Below, piece after piece: positions 55,945 to 64,000 of a stretch of DNA of 64,000 nucleotides (position 1 is its first letter; each line of letters begins with the position of its first letter). The notes beneath the pieces are model-generated. The model saw only the letters and a program-made list of their open reading frames with translations, had not been told where the DNA came from and did no database searches. The position numbers and the translations under genes are program-made. This stretch comes from Cupriavidus agavae (lineage in GTDB: Bacteria > Pseudomonadota > Gammaproteobacteria > Burkholderiales > Burkholderiaceae): assembly GCF_004217045.1 (NCBI RefSeq), contig NZ_SGXM01000003.1:248001-312000 (forward strand), in the 5' to 3' direction.

Positions 55945-56349
55945 ATGCGATACCTGGTTTGCGATGACGACTGGCGGATGGACGACGCGCTGTGGACCCG
56001 AGTCAAGTCGTTCCTGCCTGCAAGCCAGAGCACGCGCACCAGCGCGGCCAGGCATCGCCCGCGCATCGACGACCGCATCATCATGGACGCCATCCTCCTT
56101 GTCCTGCGGTCCCGCTCCCACTGGAAGGCGCTGGATCATTACGGCCGCCCCGGTTCAGGAAGCACGGTGCATCGCCGGTTCAGGGAGTGGGCGTGTGCCG
56201 GCGTCTTCCGCGAAATGCGTCGCGCCGGTGTCCTGGATCTCGACCCGCTTCGCAACCTGGACTGGGAACGCATCGAATGCCGGAAAGGTTATCGGAAACT
56301 CCGTGAATCGTATCCGGAGCCATTAACGGCATTAATCGATAGTAATTAA
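55945..56349 (+). CDS. Stand-alone IS5-type transposase N-terminal (DUF4096-like) domain protein
   Basis: 134 residues from ATG 55945. MDDALWTRVKSFLPA, RPRIDDRIIMDAILLVLRSRSHWKAL and GSGSTVHRRFREWACAGVFREM are the DUF4096 DNA-binding region of IS5-family transposases. The protein stops where the DDE domain should begin: NLDWERIECRKGY stands where transposases have a W-x-x-(I/V)-D-G catalytic start. No IS ends were seen. It may be a decayed transposase or a domesticated DNA-binding protein; the 61-bp gap to the next gene suits a regulator. In-frame TTG 55846 is an alternative start. Confidence 0.7.
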   Translation: MRYLVCDDDWRMDDALWTRVKSFLPASQSTRTSAARHRPRIDDRIIMDAILLVLRSRSHWKALDHYGRPGSGSTVHRRFREWACAGVFREMRRAGVLDLDPLRNLDWERIECRKGYRKLRESYPEPLTALIDSN

Positions 56350-56410
56350 TTTAATTCTTTTTTGGAAATAGCCAGCACATTCAGTTCATTTAAAAAAAGG
56401 AGTGGTTGAG

Positions 56411-57670
56411 ATGATAGATGTTCAGGTGAAACCTCTTGCGTCCATACCGGAGATCGGTCGAAAGCGTCGAAATTCGGTCTCCGCCCTCCATGATGCTGCC
56501 AGCGAACCGAGTAACAGCGCCGTGGCGCTTTGGTACGACACCCGCGCGCTGAGCCGGCACGAGGCGGACCGCCGCGCAGCGCTGATCGCGGCGTTCGCCG
56601 CGTCCGGCTTCAACGGCGTCCTCCTGCACCCGGACAACTGGCATGAATTCCTCCGGACCTTCGACGCCGATGTCCTGCGCATCCTCGATGTGGAGGCGCA
56701 GTCGGACTGGGACAGTGCCCAGGCCCTCTGTACGGAATTCGTCGCTGCGGGCGGTGGCGCCCCGTGTATCGCCAGCGCGGATGGCGCGGTCCTGGCGCTC
56801 GCCAGGGAGGCGGGATGGCGCACCTGCATGCGCAAGCACGTGGACGATGCCGCGACGCTGGGCGAATCGTACGAGGAGGGCGTGGACCACGACGTCGTCA
56901 TGGTGTCGTTCAAGGATCCAACGAACATCCCGCTCGAACTCGTCATTGCCGAGCTGCACGGCACCGACGTCCAACTGATCAAGGAGGTCGGCACAGACGT
57001 CGATGACGCGATCATCGCCCTTGGCGTGCTCGAACTCGGCAGCGATGGCGTGATCGCCGCGTTTGACGATCCCGCGCAGTTCGAGGCGTTCCGGATGCGG
57101 CTGCTGTCGGTCGGAACTCCCACGCTGCAGATCCAGGCCGGGACCGTGGTCGGTACGCGACACCTGGGGCTCGGGTACCGCGCCTGCATCGACACGACCC
57201 ACATGTTCGAGCCGGACGAGGGGCTGCTGGTGGGGTCTACGTCAACCGGCGGCGTCCTGTGCTGTCCGGAAGTCTTTCACCTGCCCTACATGGAGCTTCG
57301 CCCGTTCCGGATCAATGCGGCGGCAGTCCACAGCTACGTGTTCCATGCCAACGAGCGGACCAACTACATCAGTGAACTGAAGGCGGGTTCGCAGGTGACG
57401 GCGGTGAATGCCGCGGGCCGTTGCCGCCAGGTCTACGTCGGCCGCATCAAGACCGAAATCCGGCCGCTGCTACTGATCGAGGTCCGCTTCGATGGCGGCG
57501 AACTCGTCAACATCGTGATGCAGGACGACTGGCACGTGCGGATCTTCTCGGCGGAGGCGAAGCCGCGCCATATCACGGAGCTTTGCCCGGGAGACAGGGT
57601 CCTCGGATTCACGTCGCGGCCGGGCCGGCATGTCGGGGTGCAGGTCGACGAACACATCATCGAATGCTGA
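56411..57670 (+). CDS. Type II 3-dehydroquinate synthase-like enzyme (GriH-like)
   Basis: 419 residues. IPLELVIAELHGTDVQLIKEVGTDVDDAIIALGVLELGSDGVI-type core, then GLGYRACIDTTHMFEPDEGLLVGS, ELRPFRINAAAVHSYV, NYISELKAGSQVTAVNAAGR, VGRIKTEIRPLLLIEV and GRHVGVQVDEHIIE match archaeal DHQ synthase II (MJ1249) and the actinobacterial GriH. The known enzymes make 3-dehydroquinate from an aldolase-derived sugar or 3-amino-4-hydroxybenzoate from its aminated relative. AAAGGAG precedes ATG 56411. The partner aldolase (GriI-like) is not in the window. Confidence 0.85.
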   Translation: MIDVQVKPLASIPEIGRKRRNSVSALHDAASEPSNSAVALWYDTRALSRHEADRRAALIAAFAASGFNGVLLHPDNWHEFLRTFDADVLRILDVEAQSDWDSAQALCTEFVAAGGGAPCIASADGAVLALAREAGWRTCMRKHVDDAATLGESYEEGVDHDVVMVSFKDPTNIPLELVIAELHGTDVQLIKEVGTDVDDAIIALGVLELGSDGVIAAFDDPAQFEAFRMRLLSVGTPTLQIQAGTVVGTRHLGLGYRACIDTTHMFEPDEGLLVGSTSTGGVLCCPEVFHLPYMELRPFRINAAAVHSYVFHANERTNYISELKAGSQVTAVNAAGRCRQVYVGRIKTEIRPLLLIEVRFDGGELVNIVMQDDWHVRIFSAEAKPRHITELCPGDRVLGFTSRPGRHVGVQVDEHIIEC

Positions 57671-58743
57671 CCAAGAACCTACTCATCACCGGCGTGACCG
57701 GGTTCGTCGGCAGCGTCCTGGCGGCGACTTTCCTGTCACGTGGCATTTCTGTCGTGGCGTTGTCTCGTCGCGATCCCGACGGAGAAAGAACTCGCTCGGC
57801 CGTGGCTGCGGCGGCGGCGGGATGCGACATCGCGCTCGACGGCGCAATGGCCGGCCGGCTGCGAACGATCGATATCGGCGACGGCGGCCTCGGCCGTGCG
57901 CTGGAGGGCCTTGTCATCGATGACATCGATGCCGTCTGGCACTGTGCCGCCGACATGAGTCACTCCGGGCTCCGCCTGACGCAGGCGTTCGAAGCCAACG
58001 TCTGCGAGACGACGGCGCTCTACCGCTGGGCAGCCGCCCATGCGCCGCGCTGCCGTCGATTCCACTATGTTTCCACCGCCTACACGGCGGGCATGCAGGG
58101 CGGCAAGACCGAGGAGCGGCTCCATGCCGGCCAGCGCCTGTCGAACGCCTACCAGGTCACCAAGTGGTCCGCGGAGCAGTCGCTACGGACGCAGCTCGAA
58201 TCCTGCGGCCTCCCGGTCACGCTGTTCCGCCCCTCGATTGTGGTCGGCCACAGCCGCACCGGCTGGACGCGTCGCAACGGCTTTGGCTTCTATATGTTCG
58301 TGGAGGCGATGGAGGCGGTCCGTGCGGCAGGTCATCGAAGCTTCTCCTACGATCTGCCGGAGGGCGTCTGCATCGACCTCGTGGCCGTCGACCAGGTCGT
58401 GGGTGCTGCCGTCGACCTGACCCTGTCAGCATCCGCGCGCCAGGATTTCGAAGTATTCCATTGCATAGGCGGGCGCAGGATGTCCAGCCGGGCCATGCTG
58501 GAGGCCATTGCCGACGTCCTGGCCCTCCAGATCTGTTTCGCCGCACCACAGACGCCTGTCGATCGCCGGTTCGCGCGGGCCGTGGCCGCCAACCATCCCT
58601 TCGCACTGACGGACTGGGACTTCTGCTGCGCAAAGCTGGATGCGGTGCTCGGCCGCACTGCCCGCCACCCCCCTCTGAGTCCAGACCAGCTCCAGAAGCT
58701 GATTCGCTGGTACGTCAACGCGGAAACGGAGATGGCGGGGTGA
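57664..58743 (+). CDS. Thioester-reductase-like SDR (NAD-dependent epimerase superfamily)
   Basis: 359 residues. LLITGVTGFVGSVLAATFLSRG is the nucleotide-binding motif, WHCAADMSHSG and HYVSTAYTAGMQGGKTEE follow as in the Lys2-type C-terminal reductase and fatty-acyl reductase group, with the catalytic Tyr/Lys in NAYQVTKWSAEQ and then LFRPSIVVGHSRTGW. This group reduces carrier- or CoA-bound acyl thioesters to aldehydes or alcohols. Overlaps the DHQ synthase gene by 7 bp and the next by 1 bp. Confidence 0.83.
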   Translation: MLTKNLLITGVTGFVGSVLAATFLSRGISVVALSRRDPDGERTRSAVAAAAAGCDIALDGAMAGRLRTIDIGDGGLGRALEGLVIDDIDAVWHCAADMSHSGLRLTQAFEANVCETTALYRWAAAHAPRCRRFHYVSTAYTAGMQGGKTEERLHAGQRLSNAYQVTKWSAEQSLRTQLESCGLPVTLFRPSIVVGHSRTGWTRRNGFGFYMFVEAMEAVRAAGHRSFSYDLPEGVCIDLVAVDQVVGAAVDLTLSASARQDFEVFHCIGGRRMSSRAMLEAIADVLALQICFAAPQTPVDRRFARAVAANHPFALTDWDFCCAKLDAVLGRTARHPPLSPDQLQKLIRWYVNAETEMAG

Positions 58744-60155
58744 TGACCATGACGTCCACGCCAACGATGCCCCGCGCCGCGCCGACCGATGCGCTGACAA
58801 CGGCTTTCGCGAAGCTGGCCCGGATCGAGAACACGAACACGAATCAGATCGTGGTCGTCGACGGGCAACTGTGCGCGAGCCGGATGGCCGACGCGGTGCA
58901 AGCCGCCGCACGCGCATTCCCGTTGCTCGGGGTGCGCGGCGGCAATCCTGCCGGATCTGGCAGTGCGTCGCACGGCCTGTCTTTGCATCGCTGGAAGGGG
59001 CGCTGCAACTTCGGCGACGTGGGCTTCCGCCGGATGCTGATGGCATTGAGCCGGGACAACCGGCTGGACTGGCCGAACCGCCCCGCCTTCCAGATCTATC
59101 TGATCCTGGCTTCGGATGGGCTTTCGTCATGCGTCTACCTGACGAGTGCGCATGCGGTGGCCGATGCCCGTAGCGACTGCCTGCTGCTGGCGCGCCTCAT
59201 GCGGGAATATGCCCGGCTCTCCGCGCCCGAGGGCTGCGCGCCTGATTCGGACCGGAAGCAGGGCATGCCGGTCCACGAATTCGCATCGCTGCAGGACATC
59301 CTGCCGTCGTGGTACGGCGGTGTTGCGCGCATGCGCCGGCTGGCGTCAGCCGGGCGGAGCCTGGCGCAGGATCTCGTGCGCGGGGATCAGGGACTGCGCC
59401 GCCGGCGCCGCCCCGGTGTCCCGCCCGCGGAACTCGATTTCTTCCACAGTACGCTGGAACCCGAGTTCGCTGACACGATCGCCCGGAACGCGCGTCGTGC
59501 GGGCGTCACGATGAACACGCTGTTCCTGGCCGCGCTGGTGCGACTGATGGAGCGCAGCGGGAAGCGCGCCACGACGCGCCTGACGTGTGCCGTGAGCCTG
59601 CGATACAGCCTCGATCCCGCATACGGCGAGTCGTTCCGCAACTACCTGCTGCCGGTGGCCGTGCGGACGGCGCGTGGTCTCGGTGATGCCGACCTGCTCG
59701 GCCACCTCCAATCCGCGGTGCGCGCTGCGAGGCGCCCTGCGTCGCTGCAGCGGGAACTGGGGCGGCTGGAGTCGCTGGCCGCCTCCATTTCCATGCCATG
59801 GCTCGATCCCGTCTCGCGCTTCGTGATTGCCCGCTCGCAGGGTACCAACGCGTGCCTGTCGAACCCGGGCCGGATTGCCGAGGATCTTTCCGGGTTCGGT
59901 CCACAGCATCCGACGCGGCAGTACACCGGTTTCGGCTGCCTGCTCGAACCCTACGACTTCATCTTCTATCCGCCGACCGTCAACGGGCGGCTGCAGTGGG
60001 ATGTCGTTTTTCGCCGGGCGGCATTCACTGACATCGAGCGCGAGTTCGTGGCGCCCTATCGCGACGCGTTGCTGGCGCTGATCCGTGGCATCGCCGGCAA
60101 TGTGGCGCCGACGTCGGCCGGCGGGGGCGCCACTGGCGCAGGAGGCCAGTCATGA
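58743..60155 (+). CDS. Condensation/acyltransferase-like protein (CAT superfamily)
   Basis: 470 residues, no recognised close family. The motif SAHAVADARS gives His137-x-x-x-Asp141, the HxxxD of NRPS condensation domains, PapA and wax-ester synthase enzymes. VTMNTLFLAALVRLMER and CAVSLRYSLDP and a late SNPGRI fit the second half of that fold (DFGWG-like motif not evident). It may join an acyl or aryl thioester to an amine or alcohol. Start overlaps the previous stop (TGATG); an ATG at 58749 is also possible. Confidence 0.72.
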   Translation: MTMTSTPTMPRAAPTDALTTAFAKLARIENTNTNQIVVVDGQLCASRMADAVQAAARAFPLLGVRGGNPAGSGSASHGLSLHRWKGRCNFGDVGFRRMLMALSRDNRLDWPNRPAFQIYLILASDGLSSCVYLTSAHAVADARSDCLLLARLMREYARLSAPEGCAPDSDRKQGMPVHEFASLQDILPSWYGGVARMRRLASAGRSLAQDLVRGDQGLRRRRRPGVPPAELDFFHSTLEPEFADTIARNARRAGVTMNTLFLAALVRLMERSGKRATTRLTCAVSLRYSLDPAYGESFRNYLLPVAVRTARGLGDADLLGHLQSAVRAARRPASLQRELGRLESLAASISMPWLDPVSRFVIARSQGTNACLSNPGRIAEDLSGFGPQHPTRQYTGFGCLLEPYDFIFYPPTVNGRLQWDVVFRRAAFTDIEREFVAPYRDALLALIRGIAGNVAPTSAGGGATGAGGQS

Positions 60156-62116
60156 TGACGACAATAACCATTCTTTCTGGCGCGGTCGCGCTGTGTGCGC
60201 TCCTGCTCTATCTCGTGCATGTTGCGCGCGAGATTGGCATAGTGAGTCGTCTGGCGTGCCTGCGACATGTGTCGCCACCCCACGTGGCAATCCTCAGTCG
60301 CGCGGCGCGCAGGACGCCGGACCGCATCCTCGTGGAACTTGACGCGCCACTCGGGTGGCATGCGCCGGCAGTGGGGCAGACGCATGCGCCGTGCGAATGG
60401 TCGGCGCGCGCCATTTACGACACGGTTCGCCTGCTCGCTGGCGTATTGAAGGCCCGAGGCGTCGCGCCCAACGACCGCGTGGCGATCTACAAGGCCAATG
60501 CCTTCGACATCTTCCTGTTCTCGGCGGCCAGCAACTGGCTCGGTGCCGTGGCGGCGCCGATCAATGCGAACCTCGCTCCCGCCATTGCAGGTCCGTACAT
60601 CGGCCGGCTCGGCGCCACGGTTCTGGTGACCGACCGGGAGGGGCTGGAGCGCCTGAAGGCGGCCGGGCTGGAGCTGTGCAACGTGCCGGAGCTCATCGTC
60701 GTCGATGCGCCGGAGCGCGACGTACACGCTGTGCCGGACGGCCCGCGCATGGCGCCGCTCTCCGCGTTGCTCGGCGATGCGGTGGCCGTGGGCCAGCAGG
60801 CGCCCTGCGGCGCGGACGATCTGGCGTTCATTTTCCACACCTCTGGCACGACCGGCGTGCCAAAGGGCGTGATGGTGGCAGCCGGCGGGCTGATCGACGC
60901 GCTCCGCTCGGTGCTCAAGTTCAATCTGGTTTCGCCGCGTGACTACGTGTACTTTGCGCTGCCGCTGAACCACCAGGTCTCGCACCTCTACCTGTACGCC
61001 ATCATGCTGCTCGGTGTGCGGACCTGCCTCGGAAGCAGGCTGGACGCCCGGCACGCGCTCGACACCATCGAGAGCCGGCGGGTGACGACGTTCTTCGGCT
61101 TCCCCATCACCTACACGAAGCTGCTGGCCGCCGGTGCGGAGGCCCGCGACCTGTCATCGATCCGGATATGGGGAACGACGGCCGATGCCAGCCACGAGGT
61201 ACATCAACGCGCGTTCGTGCGGCATGGCAGCTTCTTCCGGCGGCTCGGGATACCGAAAGATGGCGCCGTGTTCCTGGACGGGCTGGGGTCGACGGAGGTG
61301 GGCATTGCCGCGTTGTTGCGCATTGTCACACCCTGGACGCGGCAATTCGGCCGGCGGGTCGGCCGCCCCACGCCCGGAGGTCCACGCGTCAAGGTTGTCG
61401 ACGAGGCCGGCAGCCCGGCGCCGACAGGGCAGCCCGGCCGGCTGATGATCAAGGGTCCCGCGATGTTCCGGGGGTACTGGAACGCCCACGATCTGCTGAT
61501 GAAGGCGACACACGACGGGTGGTGGGCGACCGGAGACATGGTCATGCGTGTCGCGGGCGGCGAGTACGTCCACCTCGACCGCGAAGTCGACGTCATCCGC
61601 GGCGCCACGGGTCACGCCTACACGCTGCTGATCGAGGAGTTCCTGCTCAAGCACCCGGACGTGATGGACGTCAGCGTGTTCGGCGTGACCGGGCCGGACG
61701 GCGTGGCGATGCCGGCGGCCGTGGTCGCGCTGCATCCCGGTGTCAGCGGCACGACTGGCGAGCAGCTTCGGACGGCATGGAATGCGGTGCTTGGTCCGAC
61801 GGACAAGCTCGCATACGTATGGATCGAAGCATGGTCGTCGTTCCCGATCGGTGCGACCGGGAAGACACTCGACGCGTGCTGCGGGAGCGCTTCTCCGCGC
61901 CGCCGGAAAGCCACGTGCCGCCGCATCGCGTGGCGACGGAGGAGGCGTGATGGCATCGCGGGCCGCCGCCTACATGGGATATCTCAGCCGAAGCCGATGG
62001 CTTCTGGCCCTCCTGGCAGGGGTGGCCGTGCAACCGGCTGCGCACGCGTTAGAGACGGCAATCCCCGGCTTCGACATCCGCGCAGAAACCACGCTGCAGG
62101 GATTGGTTGCGGATGA
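60152..62116 (+). CDS. Membrane-anchored AMP-dependent acyl/aryl ligase, probably frameshifted near its end
   Basis: Adenylating enzyme: N-terminal membrane helix at residues 6-26 (ILSGAVALCALLLYLVHV), P-loop IFHTSGTTGVPKGVMV near 228-242, GSTEVGIAALL, WWATGDMVMR, DREVDVIRG, and the catalytic lysine in IGATGKTLD (Lys571). After LDA the frame turns into Arg/Cys-rich nonsense that runs 167 bp into the next gene. The next frame instead gives RVLRERFSAPPESHVPPH and stops at 61948-61950 in a TGATG overlap, as between other genes here. One missing base near 61873 would explain it, so the native end is probably 61950. Confidence 0.82.
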   Translation: MMTTITILSGAVALCALLLYLVHVAREIGIVSRLACLRHVSPPHVAILSRAARRTPDRILVELDAPLGWHAPAVGQTHAPCEWSARAIYDTVRLLAGVLKARGVAPNDRVAIYKANAFDIFLFSAASNWLGAVAAPINANLAPAIAGPYIGRLGATVLVTDREGLERLKAAGLELCNVPELIVVDAPERDVHAVPDGPRMAPLSALLGDAVAVGQQAPCGADDLAFIFHTSGTTGVPKGVMVAAGGLIDALRSVLKFNLVSPRDYVYFALPLNHQVSHLYLYAIMLLGVRTCLGSRLDARHALDTIESRRVTTFFGFPITYTKLLAAGAEARDLSSIRIWGTTADASHEVHQRAFVRHGSFFRRLGIPKDGAVFLDGLGSTEVGIAALLRIVTPWTRQFGRRVGRPTPGGPRVKVVDEAGSPAPTGQPGRLMIKGPAMFRGYWNAHDLLMKATHDGWWATGDMVMRVAGGEYVHLDREVDVIRGATGHAYTLLIEEFLLKHPDVMDVSVFGVTGPDGVAMPAAVVALHPGVSGTTGEQLRTAWNAVLGPTDKLAYVWIEAWSSFPIGATGKTLDACCGSASPRRRKATCRRIAWRRRRRDGIAGRRLHGISQPKPMASGPPGRGGRATGCARVRDGNPRLRHPRRNHAAGIGCG

Positions 62117-63203
62117 CCACTACGGAGCGGCGGCCGGACATGACCGATATTGGAACGCGGAGGTGCGTCTTGATGTGGCCGCCCGGTGCGTCGCCGACTG
62201 GTGCGGCGGTGCGCGCGTGATGCTGAAGCCGAGAGTGCGCTACTTCAATTCGGACAGCGAACTTCCCGGCATCCCCGAGCCGAAGGCGTTCTCGTGGACC
62301 GAGGCGTACGCGACGGGGCACGTCGCGGACGCGTTCACATGGCTGGCCGGCAAGCGCTACCTGGCCTGGGGGCCTGGCCTGCTTTACTCGCCGACAAACC
62401 GGTTGTTTCCCGACAATGGCACGGCAACGCCGAGACGCGAGATCGCGGGAAAGTGGATGGGTATGGCGTCCTACTCGCCGACGCCATCGGCAACCGTCTC
62501 CGGCCTGTTCGCGGACCCCTACATACAGGCGGCGCCCGGCGTAACGGGATCGGGCGGCTTCGGACTGCTGCATGCCGAGTACCAGTCCTCGGGCGTCCGG
62601 CCCACGAGCGCCGGCGTGGTGGCCGGGGGCGGCGGTGCCTACCGTCCCTATGTGGGCGGCTACATCCAACACCTGCTGGACGACGCCTGGACGATTGGCG
62701 CCGAATTCTCGGCATCGAACGGGTATGCACGGTCGTCGGGGAGCGGTCCGGTGCTGCGCGAGAACGACCGGCGCTGGATGGCCGACGCGCTGGTCAACCT
62801 GCGATACGGCATGCGGTCCGGCGGCGAGCTTGGTGCGGAATACATCTACAACGGCTACCGGCTCGGGCAGCAAGCGATGCAACAGCCCTTGCTGGCTGCG
62901 CAGCCTGCGGGAGGCGCCTGGCAGACCCGCAATCTTCCGCTTCATCCGCTGCCCGAGGGGCACTACCTCAATCTGCAGGCGCTGCTGCCCAACCTGTTCG
63001 GCGACCGCCGGTTCGGCGTTGTCTTCCGTACGCTGACCGGACTCGCGTCGGGCGGCAACCTGACCTTCCTCGAACTGTCGTTCAGTCCGCGCGACGACAT
63101 CACGGCCTTCCTGGGAATGACCCGCACGTTCGGCCCCGCCGACTCGCCACTGGTCAGGTCGCTCAGCCACGGCATCTATGCGGCTATCGAAATCTATCTC
63201 TAA
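61950..63203 (+). CDS. Secreted, probably outer-membrane beta-barrel protein of unknown function
   Basis: 417 residues. Signal-type N-terminus (SRWLLALLAGVAVQPAAHA-L), then many alternating strands with Gly, Tyr and Trp (AEVRLDVAARC, RYFNSDSELPG, YLAWGPGLLYSPTNRL, GAEYIYNGYRL) and a C-terminal strand SHGIYAAIEIYL typical of barrels. The GPGLLYSPTNRL segment resembles those in capsule/alginate-type barrel proteins. ATG at 61950 overlaps the likely true stop of the ligase gene. Possibly the outer-membrane part of the export route. Family not identified. Confidence 0.75.
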   Translation: MASRAAAYMGYLSRSRWLLALLAGVAVQPAAHALETAIPGFDIRAETTLQGLVADDHYGAAAGHDRYWNAEVRLDVAARCVADWCGGARVMLKPRVRYFNSDSELPGIPEPKAFSWTEAYATGHVADAFTWLAGKRYLAWGPGLLYSPTNRLFPDNGTATPRREIAGKWMGMASYSPTPSATVSGLFADPYIQAAPGVTGSGGFGLLHAEYQSSGVRPTSAGVVAGGGGAYRPYVGGYIQHLLDDAWTIGAEFSASNGYARSSGSGPVLRENDRRWMADALVNLRYGMRSGGELGAEYIYNGYRLGQQAMQQPLLAAQPAGGAWQTRNLPLHPLPEGHYLNLQALLPNLFGDRRFGVVFRTLTGLASGGNLTFLELSFSPRDDITAFLGMTRTFGPADSPLVRSLSHGIYAAIEIYL

Positions 63204-63219
63204 CTGGGGAAATCTGGAA

Positions 63220-63921
63220 ATGGCGATCGTACAAGTGAGGGCGGTGACAAAGGTCTACCCCCTTGGGGACACCACGGTCAATGCGCTCGACGGCGTCGAT
63301 CTGACGGTCAGGGCAGGGGATTTCCTGGCGCTGACGGGACCGAGCGGAAGCGGCAAGTCGACGCTGCTGAACCTGATCTGCTGCCTCGACCTGCCGACGT
63401 CGGGCGACGTGTGCATTGACGGAGTCCGCACGACGGACCTTGGCGAGGCGGCACTGGACCAACTGCGAAGCCGGACGATCGGCATGATCTTCCAGTCGTT
63501 CAATCTCATCCCCGTGCTCAATGTGCAGGAAAACGTTGCCCTGCCGCTGCATTTGCACGGGATGGCAGCGAGCGAGCGCCGCGAGCGGGTGGCCGAGGCG
63601 ATTGCGGCGGTGGGGCTCACGCCCTTCGCATCGAGCCTGCCGGAGCGCCTGTCGGGCGGCCAGCGGCAACGCGTCGCCATTGCCCGGGCGCTGGTCACGG
63701 CGCCAAGGCTGATCCTGGCGGATGAACCCACCGCAAGCCTCGACAGCGCCAATGCCTTTGCGCTGATCGAACTGATGCAGTCGCTGAACCGGGACCACGG
63801 TGTGACTTTCCTCTTCTCGACCCACGACGACCGGCTGCTGCGCAATGTCCGCGATATCGTGAGGCTGCGGGATGGCCGCATCGAAACGGCCAGGCGGATG
63901 CCGGAGACGGAGCTGGCCTGA
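63220..63921 (+). CDS. ABC transporter ATP-binding protein, LolD/MacB type
   Basis: 233 residues: Walker A TGPSGSGKSTLLNLI near residue 40, Q-loop IFQSFNLIPVLNVQENV, signature LSGGQRQRVAIARAL, Walker B LILADEPTASLD and H-loop STHD. Sequence pattern is of the LolD/MacB/FtsE group that powers mechanotransmission-type transporters for lipoproteins, antibiotics or lipids. ATG 63220 has GGGGA upstream. The stop overlaps the next start (TGATG). Confidence 0.92.
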   Translation: MAIVQVRAVTKVYPLGDTTVNALDGVDLTVRAGDFLALTGPSGSGKSTLLNLICCLDLPTSGDVCIDGVRTTDLGEAALDQLRSRTIGMIFQSFNLIPVLNVQENVALPLHLHGMAASERRERVAEAIAAVGLTPFASSLPERLSGGQRQRVAIARALVTAPRLILADEPTASLDSANAFALIELMQSLNRDHGVTFLFSTHDDRLLRNVRDIVRLRDGRIETARRMPETELA

Positions 63922-64000
63922 TGCTCAAACTAGCGCTGAACAACCTGCGCCGGGATCGTCGGCGCACCGTGGCCACGATGGTGGCCCTCACCAGCGGACT
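63921..64000 (+). CDS. ABC transporter permease, N-terminal fragment cut by the window end
   Basis: 26 codons are visible from ATG 63921: MLKLALNNLRRDRRRT then VATMVALTSGL, the usual amphipathic start and first membrane helix of FtsX/LolC/MacB-type permeases. Its ATG overlaps the stop of the ATPase gene, so it is very probably the membrane partner. Confidence 0.8.
   Translation, partial: MLKLALNNLRRDRRRTVATMVALTSG

Follow-up and report, generated by a model that had tools for sequence, protein, structure and literature searches.

A candidate 3-amino-4-hydroxybenzoate biosynthesis-and-export cassette in Cupriavidus agavae and other Gram-negative bacteria

The literature that we surveyed yields 3-amino-4-hydroxybenzoate (3,4-AHBA) pathways from actinomycetes, namely those for bagremycin/ferroverdin and the ava/cma, crx, and ahb systems, together with the closoxazole pathways. 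In this report, we focus on a ten-gene cassette that runs across one end of a 64,000-nucleotide stretch of DNA (hereafter the window; positions 248,001-312,000 of contig NZ_SGXM01000003.1 in the 5.8 Mb genome of Cupriavidus agavae) and compare it with these systems, giving coordinates in window numbering unless the locus of a relative is named. The cassette is a real and conserved biosynthesis-and-export unit, undescribed so far as we have found, and it very probably makes and exports a 3,4-AHBA derivative. Its kind, a 3,4-AHBA pathway with a putative diazotase of the ANL superfamily, is known; what is new is the combination of assembly and export parts. Neither the cassette, nor a Gram-negative 3,4-AHBA diazo pathway, nor any pathway with the same gene order, whose absence an earlier note on this DNA had already supposed, was found described in a survey that covered mostly open papers and is no proof of absence.

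The ava and cma clusters of actinomycetes, which make avenalumic and p-coumaric acid, respectively (PMC10777205), share with the cassette GriH/GriI-type 3,4-AHBA synthesis, a separate acid-activating ligase, an ANL enzyme of diazotase type, and an NAD(P)H oxidoreductase. Unlike them, the cassette has no ketosynthase, chain length factor, or carrier protein among its ten genes, resides in Gram-negative hosts whose genomes hold no nitrosuccinate lyase over the model cut-off, and adds a condensation-like enzyme, a thioester-reductase-like short-chain dehydrogenase/reductase (SDR), and a Lol-type exporter with an outer-membrane barrel. The closoxazole clusters (clx, pfx) have 3,4-AHBA synthesis and two adenylating enzymes in common with the cassette (PMC12118335), but also encode a condensing amidohydrolase and the NatL2/PaaK-type ligase ClxA (PMC12519233, PMC7204872), both of which the cassette lacks. 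In Streptomyces, the crx and ahb clusters (crexazones, ahbamycins) likewise use 3,4-AHBA, and crx also includes diazo-related genes and a LuxR-type regulator (PMC11429834); the hosts differ from those of the cassette. With regard to N-N bond formation, the nitrite-using diazotising enzymes covered in the available part of a review come from actinomycetes, and one of the enzymes described there, Tri17 of triacsin biosynthesis (PDB 9BQ0 and 8TF7), joins nitrite to a nitrogen nucleophile with ATP (PMC11705231).

Gene content, conservation, and predicted functions

The cassette has the order griH-SDR-HxxxD-Lig1-OMP-ABC-Perm1-Perm2-griI-Lig2, with all ten genes on the + strand. The earlier note had recognised the first seven of them, and their order and tight packing are as it described, with overlaps of 7 bp (griH/SDR), 4 bp (HxxxD/Lig1), and 1 bp (TGATG; SDR/HxxxD, Lig1/OMP, and ABC/Perm1) and a gap of 16 bp between OMP and ABC. 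Its starting point of 55945 is the ATG of an upstream DUF4096 open reading frame (ORF) and not of a biosynthetic gene, the operon itself starting with griH at 56411. Its count of at least seven genes holds, but the window boundary at 64000 cuts the operon, which, when the contig is read further, runs on to about 69690 with Perm2, griI, and Lig2. The flanks look like ordinary chromosome, with pyrE-patatin-ppk2 before and dapF-lpxL-lpxL-metK after the cassette (names assigned by eye), and the same flanks enclose the cassette of Cupriavidus sp. BIS7. The G+C content of the cassette is 0.673, compared with 0.656 and 0.677 on its two sides, and no tRNA gene was found in the 64-kb window.

Relatives were located by a GriH scan of genome contigs, which relies on short peptide patterns that divergent cassettes would escape, and which returned 17 loci of other species. 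In 14 of these, the nine genes from griH to griI have identical order and strand, and Lig2 follows griI in every one of the 14. Because the same order recurs in 14/17 griH loci of other species, the arrangement is not due to chance; the notion that these genes might never occur together in other genomes, raised in the earlier note, can be set aside. The hosts span six named genera and one metagenome-assembled genome (MAG): Cupriavidus sp. BIS7, two Paraburkholderia, four Chromobacterium, one Paludibacterium, four Microbulbifer, one Pseudomonas, and a gammaproteobacterial MAG. The cassette is not confined to Burkholderiales, the order in which a neighbourhood search had been proposed. In the remaining three loci (L010 from Pseudoduganella, and L022 and L023 from MAGs named Bdellovibrionaceae and Pseudobacteriovorax), griH and griI stand in other company. 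The cassette is patchily distributed yet tightly conserved, and rare within its own genus: with the window's own genome included in each count, the HxxxD gene occurs in 2/60 genomes of the genus, griH in 2/60 mixed relatives, and the OMP barrel in 2/398 genomes of the phylum, the second barrel being a weak partial match. This weak relative (L053, G077:C15; 38 bits, partial) lies in a 401-aa open frame of another member of the phylum. A search of 72,556 plasmid records at E 1e-5 returned zero matches to the HxxxD gene, and no defence-gene model matched the DUF4096 ORF, the HxxxD protein, or the OMP.

The GriH and GriI pair points to 3,4-AHBA as the precursor. GriH (56411-57670) belongs to the type II dehydroquinate (DHQ) synthase family and resembles 3,4-AHBA synthases (PF01959, E 3.3e-86), as the earlier note had read it, and the GriI-like aldolase that it proposed to seek past 64000 is present as a DhnA-type enzyme at 67295-68152 (PF01791). 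GriH scores 292 bits with the NCBIfam DHQ synthase II family model and 253.5 bits with the BagC/FevH model (cut-off 750), and GriI scores 201.6 bits with the heptulosonate synthase family model (cut-off 241) and 113.5 bits with the BagB/FevI model (cut-off 500); all four cut-offs were missed. The BagC/FevH and BagB/FevI models are "exception" models for a single pathway. Since both proteins fall below these bagremycin/ferroverdin cut-offs, the assignment to 3,4-AHBA is drawn from the gene pair.

Three further enzymes would assemble the product. Lig2 (68149-69690; PF00501) is closest to benzoate-CoA ligases (2v7b, E 1.1e-38) and is likely the aromatic-acid ligase of the cassette, a role that does not appear to belong to Lig1. 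The SDR (57667-58743; PF07993, E 1.1e-33) is nearest to thioester reductases, with a profile match to MxaA (4u7w, E 2.2e-13). The HxxxD protein (58743-60155) resembles a stand-alone condensation-domain acyltransferase. It has no Pfam match, but its motif H137-x-x-x-D141 is invariant in 15/15 cassette proteins, its profile matches the TomBC condensation domain (E 6.6e-6), and its AlphaFold2 (AF2) model (pLDDT 82.2) finds AzeD (8s6l) as the best fold, followed by TomBC and didomains of peptidyl carrier protein and condensation domain (PCP-C), which together point to a condensation-type fold of non-ribosomal peptide synthetases. The carrier protein that had also been sought past 64000 is missing, in that Pfam detects none among the ten cassette genes.

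The export parts identified by Pfam in the window's own cassette comprise an ATPase, two FtsX-type permeases, and a LolA-like carrier domain. The ATPase (ABC, 63220-63921; PF00005, E 4.9e-35) is of LolD/MacB/FtsE type and scores 208 bits with FtsE and 207.2 bits with LolD (LolD cut-off 307.75), missing both cut-offs; the equivalog model for lipoprotein release (LolCE) gave 54.7 and 31.2 bits, short of its cut-off of 362.45. Perm1 (63921-65918, crossing the window end at 64000) is an FtsX/MacB permease (PF02687, PF12704) with a LolA_like domain (PF17131) at its C-terminus (E 3.8e-21; L003 11922-13919), and its length of 655-674 aa in 15/15 cassettes agrees with such a fusion; Perm2 (65946-67265; PF02687) follows beyond the window. 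The outer-membrane protein (OMP, 61950-63203) matches no Pfam or NCBIfam family. Its AF2 model, of moderate confidence (pLDDT 70.9), has 19 strand elements and comes closest in fold to porins such as OccD2 and OmpF, with TM-scores near 0.5, consistent with a porin-like outer-membrane beta-barrel. The set shares an ATPase, FtsX-type permeases, and a LolA-like domain with LolCDE/MacB exporters, from which it differs in the fusion of that domain to Perm1, in having its own barrel, and in the unreached LolD, FtsE, and LolCE cut-offs. We know of no described Lol system in which a LolA-like domain is fused to an FtsX-type permease.

Lig1 and the haem-oxygenase-like diiron protein

Lig1 (60152 to ~61950) had been described as a membrane-anchored adenylating ligase. 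The anchor is borne out by hydropathy, with an N-terminal hydrophobic stretch in 15/15 sequences, a helix by which Lig1 differs from Tri17, CreM, and AvaA6; the identity as an acid ligase is not, as profiles and trees group Lig1 with Tri17/AvaA6 enzymes and not with acid:CoA ligases. Among NCBIfam models, the one for the 3-aminoavenalumate diazotase AvaA6 matches Lig1 best (216 bits), and when this model was run across five genomes to rank their ANL proteins, Lig1 came first in four: the window's own genome (213.7 bits vs 80.3 for the next ANL protein), BIS7 (194.9 vs 61.2), Microbulbifer halophilus (189.1 vs 60.8), and Paraburkholderia dilworthii (148.8 vs 65.7). A profile of the 15 Lig1 sequences ranks 9xb8, 8ztz, and two Tri17 entries highest among PDB sequences. 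None of these four is among the best 60 of 185 PDB rows for an ordinary acyl-CoA ligase of the own genome that served as the control. A D-A-x-H-E stretch is found in 14/15 Lig1 sequences, 8ztz, and 9xb8, and as D-A-A-H-A in Tri17, and in 0/15 Lig2 sequences.

In two maximum-likelihood trees (47 and 25 rows), a branch with support of 100/100 divides Lig1, Tri17, 8ztz, 9xb8, and three AvaA6-like proteins from Lig2 and the other ligases (fatty-acid CoA ligases and aryl-CoA ligases). The larger tree contains all 15 Lig1 sequences, with five of 13 own-genome loci left out by a motif filter (L058, L059, L061, L063, and L066) and the split L023 protein not used; in the smaller one, four long rows were left out and 6/15 Lig1 and 6/15 Lig2 were kept. 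Both were built without the sequences of AvaA6 itself and of CreM, the cremeomycin enzyme. A plain amide or CoA ligase, the first candidate for Lig1, became less likely in view of the two trees, the PDB ranking, and the control ligase, and survives as the first of the alternatives weighed below.

A second line of evidence concerns a haem-oxygenase-like diiron protein (HDO), which is encoded downstream of Lig2 in 11/14 cassettes of relatives and is followed by a cupin gene in both Paraburkholderia cassettes. Across 14 distinct HDO sequences (from 11 cassettes, L022, L023, and L052; the alignment is without the HDO of L010), six residues do not vary, namely E79, H90, E142, H172, D176, and H179. 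They match, in order and nearly in spacing, the iron ligands E215, H225, E281, H311, D315, and H318 of SznF, an HDO-cupin enzyme that makes an N-N bond (PMC11705231). AvaA6-like genes outside the cassette were examined at four loci: L010, L022 (where the protein scores 526 bits), L023 (where the gene is split between two ORFs), and L052, which is a second cluster in C. haemolyticum. All four of these loci include an HDO, with a cupin next to it in L022 and L023 and fused to it in L052. The positional association of HDO with AvaA6-like genes is therefore clear.

Two kinds of related loci deserve separate mention. L052 (1824-15500) combines the AvaA6-like gene with PaaA (other Paa-like genes recognised by eye), the HDO-cupin fusion, a fusion of 3-deoxy-D-arabino-heptulosonate 7-phosphate (DAHP) synthase and aryl-CoA ligase, and, again by eye, anthranilate-synthase-like genes, making it another candidate N-N cluster. 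L022 (2-6356) and L023 (9905-16670) hold griH, griI, a small Amidohydro_2 protein, an AMP-binding ligase (BagE/FevW-like in L022, 340 bits), the AvaA6-like enzyme, HDO, and cupin.

Proposed pathway and competing explanations

From the gene order, protein families, ANL clade, and conservation observed, we infer the substrates, the order of steps, diazotisation, and export as follows. GriI and GriH would convert aspartate semialdehyde and dihydroxyacetone phosphate to 3,4-AHBA, the carboxylate of which Lig2 would activate as a CoA thioester or adenylate. The HxxxD protein may then pass the acyl group to some amine or alcohol, for which a second 3,4-AHBA is one possibility, and the SDR may reduce a carboxyl end. 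Anchored in the inner membrane through its N-terminal helix, Lig1 would diazotise the o-aminophenol at the expense of ATP and nitrite, and the result would be an o-quinone-diazide of cremeomycin type. For passage of the product through both membranes, the cell would rely on the ABC ATPase, both FtsX permeases, the LolA-like periplasmic domain fused to Perm1, and the barrel. Where HDO is present, as in most other hosts, it could, sometimes together with a cupin, supply oxidised nitrogen or tailor the amine; in the four HDO-less hosts, nitrite could come from nitrate respiration through NarG. The earlier proposal that an aromatic acid is made, activated, joined, and exported is thus retained as far as the enzymes and a dedicated exporter are present, and amended in that the activating ligase is likely Lig2 and not Lig1. 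Whether Lig1 forms an N-N bond is, on the sequence evidence, an evenly balanced question, and so too the chances that the cassette product is an exported 3,4-AHBA-derived metabolite with at least a transient N-N bond, that is, a diazotised one, are about equal to those that it is not.

Several observations weigh against diazotisation. Lig1 misses the AvaA6 equivalog cut-off of 975 widely with its 216 bits (the L022 AvaA6-like protein, at 526 bits, misses it too), and in C. haemolyticum, another gene heads the AvaA6 ranking (274.1 bits, compared with 182.4 for the cassette Lig1). Within the Tri17/AvaA6-like clade, Lig1 forms a separate deep branch beside the characterised enzyme, Tri17 being the sole member in the trees with confirmed function; this position and the missed cut-off leave room for another chemistry. 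Regarding motifs, the D-A-x-H-E stretch is missing from the L010 relative, and an HLDRxxDxI stretch is no clean marker, as DRxxDxI occurs in fatty-acid CoA ligases as well. In the window itself, Lig1 has an apparent frame break, either true or an assembly fault, near 61867, just past a conserved GKT motif, so that its last ~27 codons (61867-61950) lie in another frame, whereas the 14 relatives have one open frame. HDO gave 0 matches in the window's own genome. In addition, the griH of L010, L022, and L023 is no independent evidence, since griH was the means by which these three loci, unlike L052 (located with the AvaA6 model), came to light.

A further such point concerns the supply of nitrite. 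Nitrosuccinate lyase, the mark of the aspartate-nitrosuccinate (ANS) type of supply, exceeds its cut-off in 0/18 genomes, as also in 0/14 control genomes, so that the search was without a positive control; in the own genome, there are 11 lyase matches, of which four scanned singly proved to be PcaB- and ArgH-like. This type of supply was set aside on that count, and 72/134 ava-related clusters are likewise reported without CreE/CreD-type ANS nitrite genes in the cluster (PMC10777205). NarG exceeds its cut-off in 4/4 HDO-less cassette hosts, namely the window's genome, BIS7, Pseudomonas sp1636, and the MAG (L017), which may be incomplete; BIS7 is counted as HDO-less although one weak HDO match (38.1 bits) lies at another place in its genome. 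As all four carry NarG, nitrate respiration could supply nitrite, and respiratory nitrite fits the HDO-less hosts. However, NarG also occurs in 7/11 HDO-bearing hosts; the 4/4 count therefore forms no clear contrast, and NarG is a hint of, and not a clear candidate for, a substitute for HDO.

The alternative that best survives, possible though on the whole rather unlikely, is a 3,4-AHBA lipid or amide without N-N chemistry, in which Lig1 would be a membrane-bound fatty-acid or aryl adenylating enzyme merely resembling diazotases, Lig2 would activate 3,4-AHBA, the HxxxD protein would join both moieties, the SDR would reduce the end, and the Lol-like exporter would place an aminophenol lipid at the outer membrane. 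Aryl polyene clusters likewise deliver an aryl lipid to the outer membrane. The deep sister position of Lig1 favours this alternative and speaks, like the next two points, against diazotisation: a model for long-chain fatty-acid CoA ligases gives Lig1 194 bits, and 9xb8, its best profile match, is labelled FadD. The N-terminal helix and the LolA-like/LolCDE-like export genes would suit a lipid. Nevertheless, the 100/100 branch separates Lig1, with Tri17 and the AvaA6-like proteins, from fatty-acid and aryl-CoA ligases, and a lipid or amide leaves the HDO downstream of 11/14 cassettes unexplained.

Diazotisation might also serve deamination, as in ava/cma, with the SDR exchanging the diazo group for hydride, the nitrogen lost, and a 4-hydroxybenzoyl product exported. 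The ava/cma systems pair their ANL diazotase with the NAD(P)H enzyme AvaA7, which has been likened to sugar epimerases (PMC10777205), and the cassette similarly pairs Lig1 with an extended SDR. We regard this as improbable: thioester reductases (PF07993; MxaA) are the nearest matches of the SDR, no AvaA7-like model matched in the NCBIfam scan (whether NCBIfam holds one was not checked), and simpler routes to 4-hydroxybenzoate exist. A closoxazole-like benzoxazole pathway, in which ligases would join 3,4-AHBA units and an amidohydrolase would close the ring, was rejected as highly improbable despite the shared precursor genes and adenylating pair, because Pfam finds an amidohydrolase in none of the ten genes and the matches of Lig1 and Lig2 are not of the NatL2/PaaK type of ClxA. 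It is equally hard to credit that GriH and GriI provide an alternative dehydroquinate route to aromatic amino acids among unrelated neighbours, as their general best subfamily models (DHQ synthase II and heptulosonate synthase family) would allow, given that the ten genes stay together in 14/17 loci across several genera and that the marker gene HxxxD is so rare in the genus.

Neighbouring genes and significance

Besides HDO, the region downstream of Lig2 in relatives includes a LuxR-type regulator on the opposite strand (11/14), a class II aldolase (9/14), and a small membrane protein (7/14), and a LuxI-type synthase lies upstream in 5/14 cassettes; none of these five genes stands beside the cassette in the window or in BIS7. 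The LuxI-type genes are directly upstream of griH (L011 2248-2934, L013 9086-9769, L015 9128-9814, L020 9200-9835, and L021 9111-9782) and belong to the four Chromobacterium and one Paludibacterium, in which, with LuxR after Lig2, the cassette sits between a quorum-sensing pair. No lux box was found upstream of griH: the best LuxR-bearing locus, L017, was equalled by 9/100 shuffles, and the sole dyad unmatched by any shuffle is that of L008, which has no LuxR there.

In the window, griH is preceded by the DUF4096 ORF (55945-56349, + strand; 134 aa from the ATG, within a longer ORF from 55846), which corresponds to the N-terminal part of an IS4/5-type transposase (PF13340, E 1.8e-18 for the longer ORF) and is the sole match in its genome at E 0.001. 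It also precedes griH in BIS7, with 62% amino-acid identity, dN 0.345, and dS 1.381; the resulting dN/dS of ~0.25 lies at the high end of the values for the cassette genes. The ORF is thus apparently under purifying selection and may be a transposase-derived regulator in place of LuxR.

Taken as a whole, these features invite a broader proposal, which is speculative and more doubtful than not: that in Gram-negative bacteria an HDO, alone or with a cupin, takes the place of the actinomycete CreE/CreD route and either provides an ANL diazotase with nitrogen oxide or acts as its N-oxidising partner. Such a module would make o-diazoquinones from 3,4-AHBA, and a Lol-like exporter would pump them across both membranes, under quorum-sensing control in Chromobacterium and Paludibacterium and with respiratory nitrite in HDO-less hosts.

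If diazotisation by the cassette is correct, this conserved and self-contained set of genes in culturable Gram-negative genera, which includes its own exporter, would be a new source of reactive diazo metabolites and would offer a condensation-type enzyme that stands alone, no carrier protein being obvious. It would also make it possible to study how so reactive a compound is produced and exported by a cell. Furthermore, the recurring pairing of HDO with AvaA6-like enzymes would give a concrete hypothesis on the origin of the nitrogen oxide where clusters are without CreE/CreD.

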